Shown here piece by piece: positions 53,341 through 63,266 of a stretch of DNA of 64,000 nt. Numbering within the stretch: the stretch's first letter is position 1; every line of letters begins with the position of its first letter. Source of the stretch: Pseudonocardia sp. (GTDB lineage: Bacteria; Actinomycetota; Actinomycetes; Mycobacteriales; Pseudonocardiaceae); the NCBI RefSeq assembly GCF_025465255.1, contig NZ_JAODNI010000004.1, positions 1 to 64,000 on the forward strand. Reading direction: 5' to 3'. The notes below the pieces were generated by a model. That model worked only from the letters and a program-made list of their open reading frames with translations. It did no database searches and was not told the DNA's origin. The position numbers and the translations under genes are program-made.

Positions 53341-55698
53341 TCAGCCGTGGTGGCGCTGGCGCGGGGCCCGGCCGTAGGGCTGTTCCACCGGGTCGACGAA
53401 CGGCGGTGCCGGGAGCTTGCGGACCTGCGGCTCCTCGGCCAGGGCGATCGGCTCGTCGTAATGGCGCAGCCGCATCGGCGGGCCGCTGACCAGCCGGTAC
53501 TCGGCGTCCTCCTGCGTGATCGTCACGCGGATGTGCCGGCCCTGGTAGCGCAGCCCGAACGACACCCGCGAGAGCGCGGACGGGAGCACCGGGGCGAACG
53601 CCAGCCCGGTCGCGTCGCAGGTCATGCCACCCAGCCCGGTGGTGATCGCCGCCCACGAGCCCGCCATCGACGCGATGTGCATGCCGTGGTCGGTGTTCCC
53701 GGCCAGGTTGTTCAGGTCGACGAGCGCGGCCTCGGCCAGGTAGTCGTAGGCCAGGTCCAGGTGCCCGACCCGGGCCGCGACCATGGACTGCGTGCAGGCC
53801 GAGAGCGACGAGTCCCGCACCGTGATCGCCTCGTAGTAGGCGAAGTTGCGGCGCATCTGCTCAGGGGTGAACGCGTCCGGCCGCAGCTGCATGGCCAGCA
53901 CCAGGTCCGACTGCTTGATGACCTGCTTCCGGTAGAGGTCGAAGTAGGGGTAGTGCAGCAGCAGCGGGTAGGTGTCCGCCGGGGTGTTCTCGAAGTCCCA
54001 GACCTTGTGCTTCGTGAAGCCCTCGGACTGCGGATGGACCTTCAGCTCGTCGTCGAACGGGATCCGCATGGCCGACGCCGCGTCCCGCCAGCTCGCCATC
54101 TCCTCGGAATTGACGCCCAGCTTCGCCGCGGAGCGGGGGTGCTTGGCGGCCACCTCGGCGGCGTAGCGCAGGTTCTGCTGGGCCATCAGGTTCGTGTAGA
54201 CGTTGTTGTCCACGATCGCCGAGTACTCGTCCGGGCCGGTCACGCCGTCGATGCGGAACTCGCCCGCCGAGTCGTGGTGGCCCAGCGAGCGCCACAGCCG
54301 CGCGGTGGCGACCAGCAGCTCGAGGCCGACCTCCAGCTCGAACTGAGTGTCCCCCGTCGCCGCGACGTGCCGCCGGACGGCGTCCGCGATGTCCGCGTTG
54401 AGGTGGAACGCGGCGGTGCCGGCCGGCCAGTAGCCGGAGCACTCCTGGCCGCGGATCGTGCGCCACGGGAACGCCGCGCCCTCGAGGCCGAGCTGCTGGG
54501 CCCGCTCGAACGCGGACGGCAGGATGGACTGCCGCCAGCGCAGCGCGTCCGCCGCGGCGTCCGGGGCGAGGAACGAGAGCACCTGCAGGCAGAAGGTCTC
54601 GGTGTCCCAGAAGGTGTGGCCGTCGTAGCCGTCCGCGGTGAGGCCCTTGGCGCTGATGCAGCGGCGTTCGGCGCGGGCACCGGCCTGCAGCACGTGGAAC
54701 GTCGCGAGCCGGATCGCCTGCTGCAGCTCCGCGTCGCCGTCGATCTCGACGTCCGCGGTCTCCCAGAAGTCGTCCAGGTAGCACTCCTGCTCGCGCAGGA
54801 GGCCCTCCCAGCCGGTGTAGCGAGCGGCGGCGAGCGCCGCCCGGACCTGGTCGTGGATCGCGGGCAGGCTGCGCCGCGAGGACCAGCCGTAGGCGAGGTA
54901 CTTGACGACCTTGAGGGTCTCGCCCGGCTTGACCCGGCCGATGATCGTGGTGCGGCCGGTGTCCTCGGTCGCCTCCGAGGTGATCTTGATGCCCTCGGGC
55001 CCGTGCACCTCGTGGTCCATGGCCGCGCCGACGCGCAGCTGGGACTTCCGGGTCTGGTGCACCAGCGTCGCGCCGGCCTCGTCGCTGCGGTGCAGCTCGG
55101 GCTCCAGCGCGTTGGTCAGCGCGGCCTCGAGCCGGGGGTCGTCGTTGCCGCGGGTGGGCAGCTGCTCGTTCGCGACGAGCTCGGACTGCACGACGAGCAG
55201 CGCCTCCTCGTCCAGCACCTCGACCTCGTAGCTGATCGCGGCGACGGCGCGCTGGGTCAGCGAGACGAGCCGCTTGCTGCGCACCCGGACCACGCGCCCG
55301 GCCGGGGACTCCCACTCGACCTCGCGGGTCAGGGTGCCGGTGCGCAGGTCCAGCACGCGCTCGTGGCGGCGCAGCTTGCCGTAGCGCAGGTCGAACGGCT
55401 CGTCGTCCACCAGCAGCCGGATGAGCTTGCCGTTGGTGACGTTGATGATCGTCTGGCCGGACTCCGGGTAGCCGTAGCCGCCCTCGGCGTACGGGAGCGG
55501 CCGGACCTCGAAGAACGAGTTCAGGTAGGTGCCGGGCAGGTGGTGGGGGTCGCCCTCGTCGAGATTCCCGCGCAGCCCGATGTGCCCGTTGGAGAGGGCG
55601 AAGACCGTCTCGGTCTGGCCCAGCGCGGCCAGGTCGAGCGTGGGCTCGCGCACGACCCACGGTTCGACAGTGAACGTGCGGCCTGCATCCGGCTTCAC
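53341..55698 (-). CDS. Glycoside hydrolase family 65 protein, probable disaccharide phosphorylase
   Basis: This 785-residue GH65 enzyme has the catalytic acid Glu at 491 in DGVTGPDEYSAIVDNN and the FWDTE substrate-site motif at 364-368. GH65 members phosphorolyse maltose, trehalose, kojibiose or related alpha-glucosides to beta-glucose-1-phosphate and a sugar. Specificity cannot be read from this sequence. No beta-phosphoglucomutase gene, a usual partner, is nearby. The GTG at 55698 begins VKPDAGRTFTVEPW and follows GGGAG. Confidence 0.9.
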   Translation of the reverse strand: MKPDAGRTFTVEPWVVREPTLDLAALGQTETVFALSNGHIGLRGNLDEGDPHHLPGTYLNSFFEVRPLPYAEGGYGYPESGQTIINVTNGKLIRLLVDDEPFDLRYGKLRRHERVLDLRTGTLTREVEWESPAGRVVRVRSKRLVSLTQRAVAAISYEVEVLDEEALLVVQSELVANEQLPTRGNDDPRLEAALTNALEPELHRSDEAGATLVHQTRKSQLRVGAAMDHEVHGPEGIKITSEATEDTGRTTIIGRVKPGETLKVVKYLAYGWSSRRSLPAIHDQVRAALAAARYTGWEGLLREQECYLDDFWETADVEIDGDAELQQAIRLATFHVLQAGARAERRCISAKGLTADGYDGHTFWDTETFCLQVLSFLAPDAAADALRWRQSILPSAFERAQQLGLEGAAFPWRTIRGQECSGYWPAGTAAFHLNADIADAVRRHVAATGDTQFELEVGLELLVATARLWRSLGHHDSAGEFRIDGVTGPDEYSAIVDNNVYTNLMAQQNLRYAAEVAAKHPRSAAKLGVNSEEMASWRDAASAMRIPFDDELKVHPQSEGFTKHKVWDFENTPADTYPLLLHYPYFDLYRKQVIKQSDLVLAMQLRPDAFTPEQMRRNFAYYEAITVRDSSLSACTQSMVAARVGHLDLAYDYLAEAALVDLNNLAGNTDHGMHIASMAGSWAAITTGLGGMTCDATGLAFAPVLPSALSRVSFGLRYQGRHIRVTITQEDAEYRLVSGPPMRLRHYDEPIALAEEPQVRKLPAPPFVDPVEQPYGRAPRQRHHG

Positions 55699-55847
55699 TG
55701 GTGCTCCCGGATTTCGGGGACGGAGACGACGGGCATGCGCGAACGGTAGCGTCCCGCTGATCCCGTCGAGGACACCGCCGCCCACTCGTCACATCCTTGG
55801 CGCGATGGTGGCAACGCACCGTTCACACGACGGGGTGGAAACCTCGG

Positions 55848-57455
55848 TCAGGGTGCGGCCAGCGGGGTGGGAGCCGCCTCGGCCTCGGGCAGCGGGAGCC
55901 GGATGACGACCGGGTCCGGATGCCCCTCGTCCGTCACCGTGACCACGCACTGGAGCCCGGCGACGGCGGCCCGGACGGCCAGCCGGCCGCCCTCCGGACG
56001 CGGCTCGATCCGCTGCTGCACCGTGGCCTTGACGGCGTCGAGCAGCTGCAGCGGCACGATCCGGACCTCCTCGAGCCCCGGCTCCATGCCCACGCTGAAC
56101 TCCAGCCGGCGGCCGAAGCGGGCGCCCTCGATGCTGAGGTAGGCGCGGACGGCGTCCAGCTCGTCCGCCAGCGGGATGTCCCCGGTGTCCGCGCGGTCCG
56201 CCGCCCGGCTCAGCTCCGCGAACCCGAGCAGCAGCTCGCGGGCACGCGCGGGGTCCGTGCGGGTGATCGCGGCGATCGTGTTCAGCGAGTTGTAGACGAA
56301 GTGCTGTTCCAGCCGCCGGTTCAGCACCGACGACACCGGGGCCGACGACACAGCGGCCGACGACACCGCGGCCGCCGGCACCGGGGCCGTCGCCGGCGGG
56401 GGTTCGGGACCGGGTTCCGGTTCGGCCTCGGCGGCCGCCGGCGCCATCGCGATCACGTCGTCCGCGACGTCCCACAGGCCCGGGTCCACCTCGTCCGGCT
56501 CGCACAGGCCGCGCCACGCCGGCAGCCGCAGCTGGCCGGTGCGGGTGAGCGCCTGGTACTCGACCTCGGCGACGAGCCGGGGCGCCACCCAACGGGCGTC
56601 CTGGGCGACCCGGTCCGGCAGCCCCTGGCCGAACGGCGTGTCGTCCTGCTGCAGCTCCAGCATCAGCTCCCGGACCGCCCGGCGCTCGCGGCCGGAGCCG
56701 ATCCCGACCCGCCCGACGTAGCGCAGCCCGTCGGCGGCGGGCAGGCCGAGGAGCACCGCGCCGACCTTGTCCGGCTTGTGCGGATCCGCGGGCGTCCACC
56801 CGCCCACCACGACCTGGCGGCTGCGCCGCAACGGCACCCGCAGCCACTGCCGGGTGCGGCGTCCGGGCTGGTACGGGGCGTCGAGCCGCTTGAGGTGCAG
56901 CCCGTCCAGGCCGTACTGCTCGGCCGTCTGCATCACGAACTCGGCCTCGTCGGTGTGGAAGGAGGGCGGCACCATGATCGGCGCGGCGCCCAGCTCCAGG
57001 CTCTCCAGCCGCTCCCGCCGGGTGGCGTAGGGCGTCCGGATCAGTGAGCGGCCGTCGTGCCAAAGCAGGTCCGTGACGACGTAGCCCACCGGCACCCGGC
57101 GCATCAGCCCCTCCGACGGGCGGACCGTGGCGGTGCGGCGCATCAGCGGGCGGCGGCTGGGGCGGCCGGCCTCGTCCAGGGCGACCACCAGCCCGTCGAG
57201 GACCATGCCGGTCGACGGCCCGGCGATCCGCTCCCCCAGGACCCGCAGCTCGGGGAAGGAGGCGGTGACGCTGCGCGCGCCGGAGGACAGCAGCCGGACC
57301 CGGCCGGGCCGCACGTAGGCCAGGCAGCGGAAGCCCTCCCACGCGAACTCGACGGCCCAGTCCCCGCCGTCGCCCGAGTCCGGGAGCTCACCGGCCGCGG
57401 GCAGCATCGGGGGGACGACCTCCGGCATCCCGGTGCCCGCCGCGCGCCCCCTCAT
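55848..57455 (-). CDS. Fusion of ATP-dependent DNA ligase-like (catalytically altered) and LytS-type histidine kinase regions
   Basis: This 535-residue protein has an N-terminal half (about 15-325) that aligns with LigD-type ATP-dependent DNA ligase adenylation and OB domains (WAVEFAWEGFRCLAYV; RLDAPYQPGRRTRQWLRV; GGWTPADP; RYVGRVG; EVEYQALTRTGQLRLPAWRGL). The motif I lysine is Ala 38 (EFAWEG for E-KWDG), motif III Glu is Leu 89, and motif IV/V are altered (DGLHLK; WLRVP). A Pro/Ala/Glu linker (330-377) has a 15-bp repeat encoding VSSA. A LytS-type kinase region follows, with phosphoacceptor-like LEQHFVYNSLNTIAAI (His 385), but the ATP-binding N-box Asn is absent. No membrane segment is seen. 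Confidence 0.8.
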   Translation of the reverse strand: MRGRAAGTGMPEVVPPMLPAAGELPDSGDGGDWAVEFAWEGFRCLAYVRPGRVRLLSSGARSVTASFPELRVLGERIAGPSTGMVLDGLVVALDEAGRPSRRPLMRRTATVRPSEGLMRRVPVGYVVTDLLWHDGRSLIRTPYATRRERLESLELGAAPIMVPPSFHTDEAEFVMQTAEQYGLDGLHLKRLDAPYQPGRRTRQWLRVPLRRSRQVVVGGWTPADPHKPDKVGAVLLGLPAADGLRYVGRVGIGSGRERRAVRELMLELQQDDTPFGQGLPDRVAQDARWVAPRLVAEVEYQALTRTGQLRLPAWRGLCEPDEVDPGLWDVADDVIAMAPAAAEAEPEPGPEPPPATAPVPAAAVSSAAVSSAPVSSVLNRRLEQHFVYNSLNTIAAITRTDPARARELLLGFAELSRAADRADTGDIPLADELDAVRAYLSIEGARFGRRLEFSVGMEPGLEEVRIVPLQLLDAVKATVQQRIEPRPEGGRLAVRAAVAGLQCVVTVTDEGHPDPVVIRLPLPEAEAAPTPLAAP

Positions 57456-57595: not shown

Positions 57596-60142
57596 ATGAC
57601 CTCTGCGACCGCCCCGCTGCTCAGCGACCGTCTCCCTCCCGCCGCCGATCCCGACACCCTCGTCGAGACGTTCGCGGACTGGGCCTTCTCCGAACGCGGC
57701 CTGTCGCTCTATCCGGCGCAGGAGGAGGCCCTCCTGGAGATCGCGACCGGGGGGAACGTCATCCTCTCGACGCCCACCGGCTCCGGGAAGTCACTGGTCG
57801 CGATCGCGGCGCACGCGGCGGCGCTCAGCCGCGGGGTCCGCACGTTCTACACCGCCCCCATCAAGGCGCTCGTCAGCGAGAAGTTCTTCGCCCTGATCGA
57901 CGTGTTCGGCGCGGACAAGGTCGGCATGCTGACCGGGGACGCGGCGGTCAACGAGGGCGCGCCGATCATCTGCTGCACGGCGGAGATCCTCGCGAACCTC
58001 GCGCTGCGCCAGGGCCGGGGCGCGGACGTCGGCTCGGTCGTCATGGACGAGTTCCACTTCTACGCGGACCCGGACCGTGGCTGGGCCTGGCAGGTGCCGC
58101 TGATCGAGCTGCCGCAGGCACAGTTCCTGCTGATGAGCGCCACGCTCGGGGACACGACGTTCTTCCGGGACGACCTGACCCGCCGCACCGGGCGTCCGAC
58201 CGCGGAGATCACCTCGGTGGAACGGCCGGTGCCGCTGCTCTACCAGTACGTGCTGACCCCGCTGCACGAGACGATCACCGAGCTGCTGCAGACGCAGCAG
58301 GCCCCGGTCTACGTCGTGCACTTCACCCAGCAGTCCGCGGTGGAACGGGCGCAGACGCTGATGAGCGTCAACGTCACCTCGAAGGAGGAGAAGGCGGCGA
58401 TCGCCGAGCTGATCGGCAAATTCCGCTTCACCGCGGGCTTCGGGAAGACGCTGTCCCGGCTGGTCCGGCACGGGATCGGCGTGCACCACGCCGGGATGCT
58501 GCCCCGCTACCGGCGCCTCGTCGAGACCCTCGCCCAGGCCGGCCTGCTGAAGGTCATCTGCGGGACGGACACCCTCGGCGTCGGCATCAACGTCCCGATC
58601 CGCACCGTGCTGTTCACCGCGCTCGCCAAGTACGACGGCGTGCGCACGCGCTCGTTGAAGGCCCGTGAGTTCCACCAGATCGCCGGCCGGGCCGGGCGCG
58701 CGGGGTACGACACGGTCGGCACCGTCGTCGCCGAGGCGCCGGACCACGAGGTGGAGAACGCCCGGCTGCTCGCGAAGGCGGGCGACGACCCCAAGAAGCG
58801 CCGGCGCGTGGTGCGCAAGCAGCCGCCGGAGGGTTTCGTCGGCTGGTCCGGCACGTCGTTCGAGAAGCTGCAGAGCGCGCAGCCCGAGCCGCTGACCAGC
58901 CACTTCCAGGTCACCCACGCGATGCTGCTGAACGTCATCTCCCGCCCGGGGGACGCGTTCACCGCGATGCGCCACCTGCTCGAGGACAACCACGAGTCCC
59001 GGCCGCGCCAGCGCAAGCACATCCTGCGGGCCATCGCGATCTACCGGGCGCTGCTCGCCGCCGGGATCGTCGAGAAGCTCGACGAACCCGACGCCGAGGG
59101 CCGCACCGTGCGCGTCGTCGGCGACCTGCAGCTGGACTTCGCGCTCAACCAGCCGCTCTCGCCGTTCGCGCTGGCCGCGATCGAGCTGCTGGACATGGAG
59201 TCCCCCGGCTACGCCCTGGACGTGCTCTCGATCATCGAGGCGACGCTGGACGACCCGCGCCAGATCCTGCACGCGCAGCAGAACAAGGCGCGCGGGGAGG
59301 CCGTCGCCGCGATGAAGGCGGACGGCATCGAGTACGAGGAGCGCATGGCGCTCCTCGAGGACGTCAGCTACCCCAAGCCGCTCGACGAGCTGCTCACCGC
59401 CGCGCTGGAGACCTACCGGCGGGGCGCGCCGTGGGTGGAGGACGCCCGGCTCTCGCCGAAGTCCGTGGTCCGGGACATGAGCGAGAAGGCGATGACCTTC
59501 CACGAGTACGTCTCGTACTACCAGCTGGCCCGCTCCGAGGGCCTGGTCCTGCGCTACCTCGCGGACGCCTACCGGGCGCTGCGGCAGACCGTGCCGGAGC
59601 ACGCGCGCACCGAGGAGCTCACGGACATCATCGAGTGGCTGGGCGAGCTGGTCCGCCAGGTGGACTCCAGCCTGCTCGACGAGTGGGAGAAGCTCGCCGC
59701 CGGCGGCGGGACGGACACCGACGAGATCGCGCCGCCGTCGCTGGACCAGGGGCCGGCCGGTGTCACCGGCAACGTCCGGGCCTTCCGGGTGCTGGTGCGC
59801 AACGCGCTGTTCCGCCGCGTCGAGCTCGCGTCGCTGAACCGCTGGGACCTGCTCGGCGAGCTGGACAAGGACTCCGGCTGGAACGCCGACGCCTGGCGCG
59901 AGGCGTTCGAGCCCTTCTTCGAGCTGCACGGCTGGGGCGGCATCCAGATCGGCCCGGACGCGCGTGGCCCCAAGCTCATCACGATCACCGAGGAGAAGGA
60001 GCGCTGGATCGTCCGACAGGTCATCGACGACCCGGCGGGCGACCACGACTGGGCCGTCACCGCGGAGGTCGACCTGGCCGCGTCGGACGAGGCCGGCGAG
60101 GCAGTGGTCTGGGTCACGGGCGTCTCGGACACCATCGGGTGA
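57596..60142 (+). CDS. DEAD/DEAH-box helicase with DUF3516 domain (Ski2-like)
   Basis: This 848-residue superfamily 2 helicase has Walker A STPTGSGKSLVAIAAH (about 58-73), MDEFHFYADPDRGW (DEFH as motif II), LLMSATLGD, GIGVHHAGMLPRYRRLVE, TDTLGVGINVPIRTVLF and HQIAGRAGRAGYD. The C-terminal DUF3516 region follows (FHEYVSYYQLARSEGLVLRYLADAYRAL). This is the actinobacterial relative of Ski2/Mtr4-type RNA helicases; the substrate is not established. It is transcribed away from the ligase-like fusion gene, 140 bp apart. Confidence 0.9.
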   Translation: MTSATAPLLSDRLPPAADPDTLVETFADWAFSERGLSLYPAQEEALLEIATGGNVILSTPTGSGKSLVAIAAHAAALSRGVRTFYTAPIKALVSEKFFALIDVFGADKVGMLTGDAAVNEGAPIICCTAEILANLALRQGRGADVGSVVMDEFHFYADPDRGWAWQVPLIELPQAQFLLMSATLGDTTFFRDDLTRRTGRPTAEITSVERPVPLLYQYVLTPLHETITELLQTQQAPVYVVHFTQQSAVERAQTLMSVNVTSKEEKAAIAELIGKFRFTAGFGKTLSRLVRHGIGVHHAGMLPRYRRLVETLAQAGLLKVICGTDTLGVGINVPIRTVLFTALAKYDGVRTRSLKAREFHQIAGRAGRAGYDTVGTVVAEAPDHEVENARLLAKAGDDPKKRRRVVRKQPPEGFVGWSGTSFEKLQSAQPEPLTSHFQVTHAMLLNVISRPGDAFTAMRHLLEDNHESRPRQRKHILRAIAIYRALLAAGIVEKLDEPDAEGRTVRVVGDLQLDFALNQPLSPFALAAIELLDMESPGYALDVLSIIEATLDDPRQILHAQQNKARGEAVAAMKADGIEYEERMALLEDVSYPKPLDELLTAALETYRRGAPWVEDARLSPKSVVRDMSEKAMTFHEYVSYYQLARSEGLVLRYLADAYRALRQTVPEHARTEELTDIIEWLGELVRQVDSSLLDEWEKLAAGGGTDTDEIAPPSLDQGPAGVTGNVRAFRVLVRNALFRRVELASLNRWDLLGELDKDSGWNADAWREAFEPFFELHGWGGIQIGPDARGPKLITITEEKERWIVRQVIDDPAGDHDWAVTAEVDLAASDEAGEAVVWVTGVSDTIG

Positions 60143-61100: not shown

Positions 61101-63266
61101 ATGGGCGGGGACCGGGTGGATCCGGCGGCGCTGGCCGCGGACTGGACCACGGCCGTCCTCGGCACGAGCTACGTCTCGATGAACCGCCGGGACCTGCGTC
61201 GGTACCTGACCGGACTGGCCACCCGGCTCGTCGCGTCGTTCGACGCGCCGGAGTGGGACCGCACGGTCGCCGCGGGCGTCGGACGGCTCATGGTCGCGGC
61301 GCACTTCACGGACGCGCGGTCCCTGGAGCGGACCCTCGCCGTCGTCGCGGAGCACCTGGCGCCCGCCGGCGCGGACCGCACGTCCCGCCTCGCCGCCCTG
61401 CAGGGCGCGCTCGCCGCCGGGTACGCCGAGGCGCTGCGCGAGCGCACCCTCGCCGAGCAGGAGCGGATCAGCATGGCGGCGTTCGCCGCCCGGGTCGCCG
61501 CCGAGGAGGCCCGCTGGGCGAGCGAGGCGCGCTACCAGGCCGTGTTCGCCGGGGCCGTGATCGGGATCAGCGTCGCCGAGCTCGACGGGCGCATAGTCCA
61601 GGTCAACGAGGCGCTCTGCGCGATGCTCGGGTACGACGCCGGGGAGATCGCGGCCCGGCCGATCTACGAGTTCATGCACCCCTACGACACCTCTGACAAC
61701 TGGCGGCAGGTGCGGGAGATGATCGCCGGCACGGTGGACCACCTGCGGATGGAGAAGGCCTACTACCGCAAGGACGGCACCGAGCTCTGGACGGACCTGG
61801 TGGTCTCGCTGATCCGGGACCAGGCCGGGGAACCGCGCTACCTCGTCGCGATGGTCGAGGACATCACCGAGCGGCACCTGCTCCAGACCCGGCTGCAGCA
61901 CCAGGCCCTGCACGACCCGCTCACCGGGCTGCCCAACCGCGCGCTGTTCTTCGACCGGCTCGAGGCGGCGCTGGAGGACGAGTACGGCGTCCCCGGCGTC
62001 TGCTACCTCGACCTCGACGGGTTCAAGGCCGTCAACGACACCCTCGGCCACGACGTCGGGGACCAGCTGCTGCGGACGATCGCGGAACGGCTGCGGGCCG
62101 AGCTCGCCCCCGAGGGGCATCTGGTGGCCCGGATGGGCGGGGACGAGTTCGTCGTGCTCGTCGAGGACGCCTCGGACCCGGCCCACATGCGCCGGGTCGC
62201 CGAGCGCGCGCTGGAGACGGTCCGCCGGCCGGTGCGGGTCGAGGGCAACGAGATCCGGGTGTCCGCCAGCATCGGGATCGTCGGCCGGGACCAGGGCGGG
62301 TCCGGCGCCGCGGAGCTGATGAAGGCCGCGGACACCACCCTGTACTGGGCCAAGAACGACGGCCGCTCACGGGTCGCGGAGTTCGACCGGGACCGCCACC
62401 GCACCGACGTCGCCCGCTTCGAGCTGTCGGCCCAGTTGCCGGAGGCGTTGCGGCGCCAGGAGTTCTTCCTGGAGTACCAGCCGCTGGTACGGCTCTGCGA
62501 CGGCGTGGCCACCGGGGTAGAGGCGCTGGTGCGCTGGCGCCGGGAGACCGGGGAGCGGCTCGGCCCGGACCGCTTCATCCCGCTGGCCGAGGAGACCGGG
62601 CTGATCGTCGCCCTGGGCCGCTGGGTGCTCACCGAGGCGTGCGGGCAGGCCCGGCGCTGGCACGACGCGCACGGCGGCGAGCGGCCGTTGATGAGCGTGA
62701 ACGTCGCGGCACGGCAGGTGCGGGAGCCGGACTTCGTCGACGACGTCCGCGCCGCCCTGGACCGGACCGGCTGGCCCGCGGGGGCGCTGCAGCTGGAGCT
62801 GACCGAGAGCGACGTCATGACCGCCGGGGGCGGGCCGCTGGAGACCCTCGGGGCGCTGGCGGACCTCGGCGTCCGGATCGCGATCGACGACTTCGGCACC
62901 GGCTACTCGAACCTGGCCTACCTGCGCACGCTGCCGGTCCACGAGCTCAAGCTGGCCGGGCCGTTCGTCACCGGCATCGGGCCGGGCGGCCGGAACGGCC
63001 GTGGCGGCACGGCGGGCACCGAGGCCGTCCTGTCGTCCGTGATCGGGCTCGCCCATACGCTCGGGCTGTCGGTCACCGCGGAGAACGTGGAGACGGCGGA
63101 GCAGCACGGCCGGCTGCGGTCGCTGGGCTGCGACACCGGACAGGGCTGGTTCCTCGCCCCGCCGGCGGGGCCGGCGCGGGTCGAGCCCCTGCTGGGCCGC
63201 CCGCTGCCGAGGCTGCGGCGCAGCCCGGTCCCGGGCGGGGAGCGCCGGCGGCCGGCTACGGGCTGA
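61101..63266 (+). CDS. PAS-GGDEF-EAL cyclic di-GMP signalling protein
   Basis: This 721-residue cytosolic protein has an N-terminal helical region (about 1-135), a PAS domain (140-265, GAVIGISVAELDGRIVQVNEALCAMLGYDA), a GGDEF domain (about 275-435) with intact GGDEF in RMGGDEFVVLV, and an EAL domain (about 445-700). The EAL motif VEALVRW and DDFGTGYSNLAYL are intact. The KID motif reads KLA and AEGVE reads AENVE, so phosphodiesterase activity is uncertain. No RxxD inhibitory site precedes GGDEF. It ends overlapping the convergent glycosyltransferase gene by 11 bp. Confidence 0.9.
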   Translation: MGGDRVDPAALAADWTTAVLGTSYVSMNRRDLRRYLTGLATRLVASFDAPEWDRTVAAGVGRLMVAAHFTDARSLERTLAVVAEHLAPAGADRTSRLAALQGALAAGYAEALRERTLAEQERISMAAFAARVAAEEARWASEARYQAVFAGAVIGISVAELDGRIVQVNEALCAMLGYDAGEIAARPIYEFMHPYDTSDNWRQVREMIAGTVDHLRMEKAYYRKDGTELWTDLVVSLIRDQAGEPRYLVAMVEDITERHLLQTRLQHQALHDPLTGLPNRALFFDRLEAALEDEYGVPGVCYLDLDGFKAVNDTLGHDVGDQLLRTIAERLRAELAPEGHLVARMGGDEFVVLVEDASDPAHMRRVAERALETVRRPVRVEGNEIRVSASIGIVGRDQGGSGAAELMKAADTTLYWAKNDGRSRVAEFDRDRHRTDVARFELSAQLPEALRRQEFFLEYQPLVRLCDGVATGVEALVRWRRETGERLGPDRFIPLAEETGLIVALGRWVLTEACGQARRWHDAHGGERPLMSVNVAARQVREPDFVDDVRAALDRTGWPAGALQLELTESDVMTAGGGPLETLGALADLGVRIAIDDFGTGYSNLAYLRTLPVHELKLAGPFVTGIGPGGRNGRGGTAGTEAVLSSVIGLAHTLGLSVTAENVETAEQHGRLRSLGCDTGQGWFLAPPAGPARVEPLLGRPLPRLRRSPVPGGERRRPATG

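Follow-up and report, generated by a model that had tools for sequence, protein, structure and literature searches.

A catalytically stripped DNA ligase domain fused to a LytS-type histidine kinase module in Pseudonocardia, a possible receptor for DNA ends

We analyzed a stretch of 64,000 nucleotides from Pseudonocardia sp. (contig NZ_JAODNI010000004.1, positions 1 to 64,000; here referred to as the window), in which a single open frame on the minus strand, with its ATG at 57455 and a TGA ending at 55848, encodes a protein of 535 amino acids that joins a LigD-type DNA ligase domain to the PF06580 module of LytS-type histidine kinases. Frame 1 of the plus strand across 55848..57455 is broken by a stop. 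Three Pfam domains were found in the protein, all above the curated cut-offs: DNA_ligase_A_M (residues 30 to 206), DNA_ligase_A_C (229 to 317), and His_kinase PF06580 (377 to 451). With phmmer, residues 16 to 322 matched the ligase domain of Mycobacterium tuberculosis LigD (1vs0; E value, 2.2e-50) and residues 381 to 512 matched the solved histidine kinase 6swj (E value, 2.2e-9), while the top NCBIfam match was the LigD ligase region at 247.5 bits, not reaching the equivalog cut-off of 989. The frame, the Pfam domains, and the phmmer matches bear out an earlier note on this DNA, which had described one uninterrupted 535-codon gene joining ligase-like and kinase modules, and all the residues that it had singled out (A38, L89, a changed motif V, His 385 within LEQHFVYNSLN, and the N-box region) are as it gave them. 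The predicted model of the fusion protein has a predicted local distance difference test score (pLDDT) of <50 at residues 336 to 353, 355 to 375, and 377 to 379. No membrane helix is expected in the window protein, and a reading as a membrane sensor was dropped because the maximum hydropathy over 19 residues was only 1.26.

The ligase half has lost its catalytic residues throughout the family. Residue tallies cover 241 family proteins (the window protein and 240 retrieved), three of which are shortened and carry gaps at motif I, leaving 238 letters at that position. None of these is the nucleophilic Lys; no homologue with an intact KxDG was thus found, and the ligase half without catalytic residues that the earlier note had described in one protein is a property of the family. 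Position 38 varies widely (A, G, S, T, N, L, V, I, and others), with 101 Ala, 19 Gly, and 1 gap in 121 Pseudonocardia-type proteins. The window protein has the nucleotidyltransferase (NTase) and OB fold and the sequence homology of LigD/LigC-type ligases, and lacks the KxDG with nucleophilic Lys by which ATP-dependent ligases are recognized. From 73 positions near-invariant in 17 intact ligases, 37 are kept in more than 70% of every branch of the family and seven are lost in every branch, including the motif I Lys, the motif III Glu, the motif IV Glu, and the motif V Lys. Each of the last three is kept in less than 30% of every branch and is lost in the window protein, whose motif V reads WLRVPLRR. 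The aromatic residue of motif IIIa is lost in Pseudonocardia members (genus g1 of our searches); Phe is kept there in the 18 relatives compared, which are environmental or come from Actinomycetospora (g5) and two further Pseudonocardiaceae genera (g15 and g45). Since the ligase domains of the family form one clade (support, 99/96), the catalytic loss is best placed in one ancestor.

Two alternative explanations turn on these residues. One is an active ligase with another nucleophile, as could be read from the database names of some members ("DNA ligase (ATP)," "non-homologous end-joining DNA ligase," or "LigD"). We rejected it on residue grounds: motifs I, III, IV, and V have lost their catalytic residues together, position 38 tolerates many residues, and every one of the five g15 genomes that we examined encodes a separate ligase, with KWDG, all of which makes this explanation extremely improbable. 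The other is that what the ligase-derived domain recognizes is a nucleotide or some other small molecule, not DNA, and that this recognition controls the phospho-His module. In its favor, the fold of the nucleotidyltransferase has persisted, as has the motif IIIa Phe in the 18 relatives mentioned above. Nucleotides were also among the ligands first proposed. However, a nucleotide ligand is unlikely because every branch has lost the Lys and Glu residues of motifs I, III, IV, and V, with the IIIa aromatic missing as well in Pseudonocardia, and DNA better accounts for the retained OB domain and for the Ku linkage (see below). A small-molecule sensor therefore seems distinctly unlikely.

In the kinase half, the phospho-acceptor region is kept and the ATP-binding part is eroded in Pseudonocardia. 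The alignment of the His region comprises 267 rows, which overlap partly (some strains are represented both by a database protein and by a genome locus); every row has the phospho-acceptor His, and all but one have the Asn four residues beyond it (Table 1). The window protein shows the His_kinase domain with phospho-acceptor His of the LytS (PF06580) type, and lacks the N-box Asn and the G1 and G2 boxes. Its N-box region reads LLDAVKATVQQRIEP, so that the degenerate N-box initially proposed is indeed there; the refinement is that the ATPase domain from the G2 box onward is absent too. Pseudonocardia proteins lack N-box, G1, and G2 and have a shortened ATPase domain. Among relatives outside Pseudonocardia, the N-box Asn is present in 111 of the 120 proteins of a second search, G1 (DDGxG) in 12 aligned members of other genera, and a G2-like HGGIAEV only in Actinomycetospora-type members, g15 and g45 having a shortened lid. 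Parsimony gives eight or more changes of the N-box Asn and none of the phospho-acceptor His; P0027, a Pseudonocardia protein with Asn in the N-box column and the rest of the box missing, may add one change to the eight. A kept His region next to a degenerate ATPase domain is what characterizes phosphotransferases of the ChpT/Spo0B/PhyT type and, by analogy, the pattern fits a phosphotransferase or dimer partner resembling them. The suggestion that the kinase half is simply a binding module found no support in that form, as the N-box and G1 kept in other genera, together with a His unchanged in 267/267 rows, point to phosphotransfer. In three genomes placed in the genus (loci L102 to L104), the family member is divergent, is encoded at another locus, and has a longer ATPase domain.

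Table 1. Coordinates of the fusion gene, its domains and diagnostic residues, and the neighboring genes in the window
Feature	Residues	Position	Strand	Remark
Pseudo-ligase/histidine-kinase fusion gene		55848..57455	-	535 aa + stop
NTase domain, LigD-type ATP-dependent DNA ligase, catalytic residues replaced	10-210	56826..57428	-	
Ligase OB domain	211-322	56490..56825	-	
Pro/Ala-rich linker	323-376	56328..56489	-	Low confidence in predicted model
PF06580 module of LytS-type kinases (dimerization and phospho-acceptor region)	377-451	56103..56327	-	
ATPase (CA) domain, shortened, without G2 box	452-521	55893..56102	-	
Ala at motif I nucleophilic Lys position	38	57342..57344	-	Alignment
Leu at motif III Glu position	89	57189..57191	-	Glu in 0/241
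Asp at motif IV Glu position	184	56904..56906	-	
RVP at motif V	206-208	56832..56840	-	First motif V Lys kept in 1/241
Phospho-acceptor His position	385	56301..56303	-	His in 267/267 rows
His+4 Asn	389	56289..56291	-	Asn in 266/267 rows
Degenerate N-box, DAVKATVQQRIEP	473-485	56001..56039	-	Alignment
GH65 family enzyme, downstream neighbor		53341..55653	-	Conserved genus-specific locus
DEAD-box helicase with DUF3516, divergent neighbor		57596..60142	+	Conserved genus-specific locus

The fusion is conserved well beyond the window. In the protein search, whose matches are clusters, the best 120 of 387 all show the Pfam domains of the ligase NTase and of the kinase, together with the OB domain in all but P0047 and P0048; P0002 (98% identical, with no source given) is probably the entry of the window protein itself. 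Within the genus, 58 of 62 genomes match at an E value of ≤1e-60, with both halves seen in 55; in G009, G028, and G049, a contig end falls inside the gene and just the Lys-less ligase part is visible, and the four genomes without a match are drafts of 72 to 94% completeness. A family-level search of 390 genomes from 46 genera gave 114 matches (E value, ≤1e-66), 86 of them in four genera (Pseudonocardia, 58; Actinomycetospora, 16; g15, 10; g45, 2), where they reach the kinase half or were checked against the loci. The remaining 28 stop at the ligase part as listed, and this by itself leaves room for a fusion. For genera other than these four, both that search and one at the level of the order (at least 231 of 397 genomes matched) gave ligase-only matches, yet the absence of the fusion there is unproven because true fusions sometimes show the same cut (G087 in the order-level search and G044 in the family-level search). 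A profile built from 12 proteins of g5, g15, and g45 added 120 members, the best 120 of 2889 matches (plain ligases included), bringing the family to at least 240 sequences; metagenome-assembled genomes labeled Pseudonocardiaceae are among the close relatives of g15. Thus, with the domain pair in at least 120 protein clusters, a match in 58/62 genus genomes, and members in four genera, chance or an assembly artifact confined to one genome is ruled out, and the ligase-then-PF06580 fusion is conserved, with A38-type substitutions across the family.

The relationship to Ku differs among genera. In g15, the fusion gene lies directly downstream of Ku on the same strand in 10/10 genomes (gaps of 7 to 127 bp as called); in g45, the family gene is convergent with an adjacent Ku in 2/2 genomes (G387, and G388 via a second copy on contig C543); and in Actinomycetospora-type genomes, Ku is 9.2 to 9.6 kb away in 3/3 tested. 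Given that the genomes are related, these linkages represent few events, not fifteen. They favor the reading of DNA ends as the ligand. They also bear on another explanation, a protein that is mainly a brake on end joining or a scaffold for it, in which the pseudo-ligase would occupy Ku or DNA ends and the kinase-like part would merely dimerize, with no phosphate signal. The Ku-operon position in g15, the loss of catalytic residues with the fold kept, and the loss of ATP-binding residues in Pseudonocardia would all suit it, and PMC11754673 reports a structural role in end joining for inactive Lig4. Nevertheless, a pure dimerizer would need neither the kept His (267/267) nor the kept His+4 Asn (266/267), the N-box Asn is kept in 111/120 relatives outside Pseudonocardia, and Ku is unlinked in Pseudonocardia, so that we regard a brake or scaffold as unlikely.

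As to other features of these loci, G388 has two copies of the fusion gene (contigs C188 and C543), one of which adjoins Ku. In G083, G086, G087, and G388 (L159, L164, and L177), matches of a Ku-adjacent LigC-type ligase cover only the first ca. 185 to 195 residues, and this ligase may therefore lack the OB domain. In Actinomycetospora-type genomes (L074 to L083), the fusion gene is preceded on its own strand by a likely anti-sigma gene and, before that in most cases, by a sigma-factor-like gene; in L076, on which alone Pfam was run, the upstream sigma factor was called and the anti-sigma-like protein had no match. In Pseudonocardia, the order is a divergent DUF3516 helicase (32/36 loci), the fusion gene, a HAD-like gene (33/36), and GH65 (35/36), often followed by topoisomerase IB, a sigma factor, and a UvrD-type helicase; Pfam names were taken from the window genes, and the HAD-like gene, which has no Pfam call, was named from its DxD start. 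The HAD-like gene is missing in the window (55653-55848) and in L038. The window also encodes a large PAS-GGDEF-EAL protein (cyclic di-GMP turnover) near the fusion gene, at 61101-63266. No LexA, RecA-NDp, or GTTT-GGGTA-like boxes were found upstream in the window or in 20 genus loci, and membership in a defense system was discarded after PADLOC returned no match for three members.

The nearest kinase relatives were found in 15/15 genomes searched, where a conserved LytS kinase adjoins an Fpg-type DNA glycosylase gene (called in 14/15) and an S49 peptidase gene (15/15), with a LytTR match 1.6 to 4.6 kb downstream of the kinase in 15/15. These loci (L122 to L136) lie on contig C111 of the genome of the window and in 14 others, and the neighborhood is possibly a DNA-repair-linked two-component system. 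A LytTR match is present in 20/20 genomes, and exactly one in 10 of them. The His region of the window protein is identical at 22/41 positions to the conserved LytS kinase and at 19/41 to the second LytS kinase of the genome. The most economical partner would be the conserved LytS kinase beside the Fpg-type glycosylase, with the nearby LytTR regulator, an assignment that we can only infer, since the difference in the His region is small and tree support is weak (67/89).

Together, these data lead us to suggest, tentatively, that the pseudo-ligase senses DNA ends, likely together with Ku, and is predicted to signal by phosphotransfer through the invariant His to a response regulator. The ligase fold would be the receptor for DNA or DNA ends, with Ku likely acting alongside it there, and DNA binding would shift the state of the helical dimer. 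Where relatives have kept the ATPase domain intact, the fusion protein would autophosphorylate. In most Pseudonocardia, including that of the window, it would receive its phosphate from a partner kinase or regulator, or act back on that partner, like ChpT, Spo0B, or PhyT; the phosphate would then pass from His 385 to a response regulator. A bolder version appears doubtful, although possible: a bacterial DNA-break checkpoint in which a retired end-joining ligase, delivered by Ku, senses breaks for a two-component phosphorelay, ends that are unrepaired or persistent switch a LytTR-controlled program, and the kinase has become a dedicated relay protein in Pseudonocardia.

Several observations weigh against this proposal. 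Every branch has also lost R58, H109, and R281, which do not vary in intact ligases, and 29 further ligase positions are lost in some, so that affinity for DNA may be reduced. Ku is not linked to the fusion gene in any of the five Pseudonocardia genomes tested (on other contigs in the genome of the window and in G025, and >1 Mb apart in G001, G010, and G029); the fusion gene of this genus sits by GH65, HAD-like, and helicase genes rather than Ku, and in three deep-branching genomes the family gene is at another locus. No LytTR gene was near the fusion gene in 20 genomes, all being on other contigs or at least 170 kb away. In the kinase-module tree, from which L102 (HFMFN) was left out, the family rows are set apart from the others by a weakly supported branch (67/89). 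Finally, by simple counting that ignores codon bias at this G+C content, the ratio of nonsynonymous to synonymous substitutions (dN/dS) against L038 was 0.28 for the whole gene (ligase part, 0.20; kinase part, 0.19), compared with 0.08 for the GH65 neighbor in the same pair, and 0.57 to 0.71 in four other pairs. The fusion gene is under weaker constraint than its GH65 neighbor. The faster evolution, the shortened kinase domain, and the lost Ku linkage could also mean a remnant under weak selection, with the Ku-linked kinase of related genera as the working form and the Pseudonocardia version decaying. However, the match in 58/62 genus genomes, the same neighbors in most of 36 loci, the 57 residues invariant across 73 chosen members, and a dN/dS of ca. 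0.2 for each functional part in one pair (higher in others) make decay very doubtful. With some reserve, we thus prefer the DNA-end-sensing relay over an end-joining brake, a nucleotide sensor, decay, and an unusual active ligase.

The fusion shares with the LigD/LigC ligase domain (M. tuberculosis LigD, 1vs0/6nhz) the fold, the NTase-OB order, 37% identity over aligned residues, 37 of the 73 near-invariant positions, and, in related genera, the Ku neighborhood. Unlike LigD, it has the Lys and Glu of motifs I, III, IV, and V replaced, is fused to a kinase module, and has no polymerase or phosphoesterase domain. As in bacterial Ku-LigD end joining, Ku and ligase genes are paired, but here the paired ligase domain is without catalytic residues and carries a signaling module. 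PMC9638933 describes binding of Ku to the LigD ligase domain in M. tuberculosis, PMC8656161 concerns the role of the LigD lysine, and PMC5898713 treats PhyT and also names Spo0B. In contrast to LytS-type kinases (GanS, 6swk, and the conserved LytS of the same genomes, which has a GAF domain in the one copy scanned), the input is a pseudo-ligase, and the Pseudonocardia fusion has neither N-box, G1, nor G2 and a shortened ATPase domain. The likeness to ChpT, Spo0B, and PhyT lies in the His region kept beside a degenerate ATPase, with phosphotransfer by the fusion being predicted; to our knowledge, none of the three has a DNA-ligase-derived input. No description of the fusion protein was found among the papers listed in searches of the open-licence literature, in agreement with the earlier note, which knew of no described system with this architecture.

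Bacteria are known to sense DNA damage mainly via RecA and LexA. If the proposal is correct, a phosphorelay with an end-joining ligase stripped of catalysis as its receptor would be a different way of reading DNA breaks, and a repair enzyme would have been converted into a signaling receptor. As the family holds both seemingly complete and degenerate kinase halves, the steps from kinase to relay protein could be traced on one tree. The database labels "DNA ligase (ATP)" and "LigD" need correcting, given that no examined member keeps the catalytic lysine.
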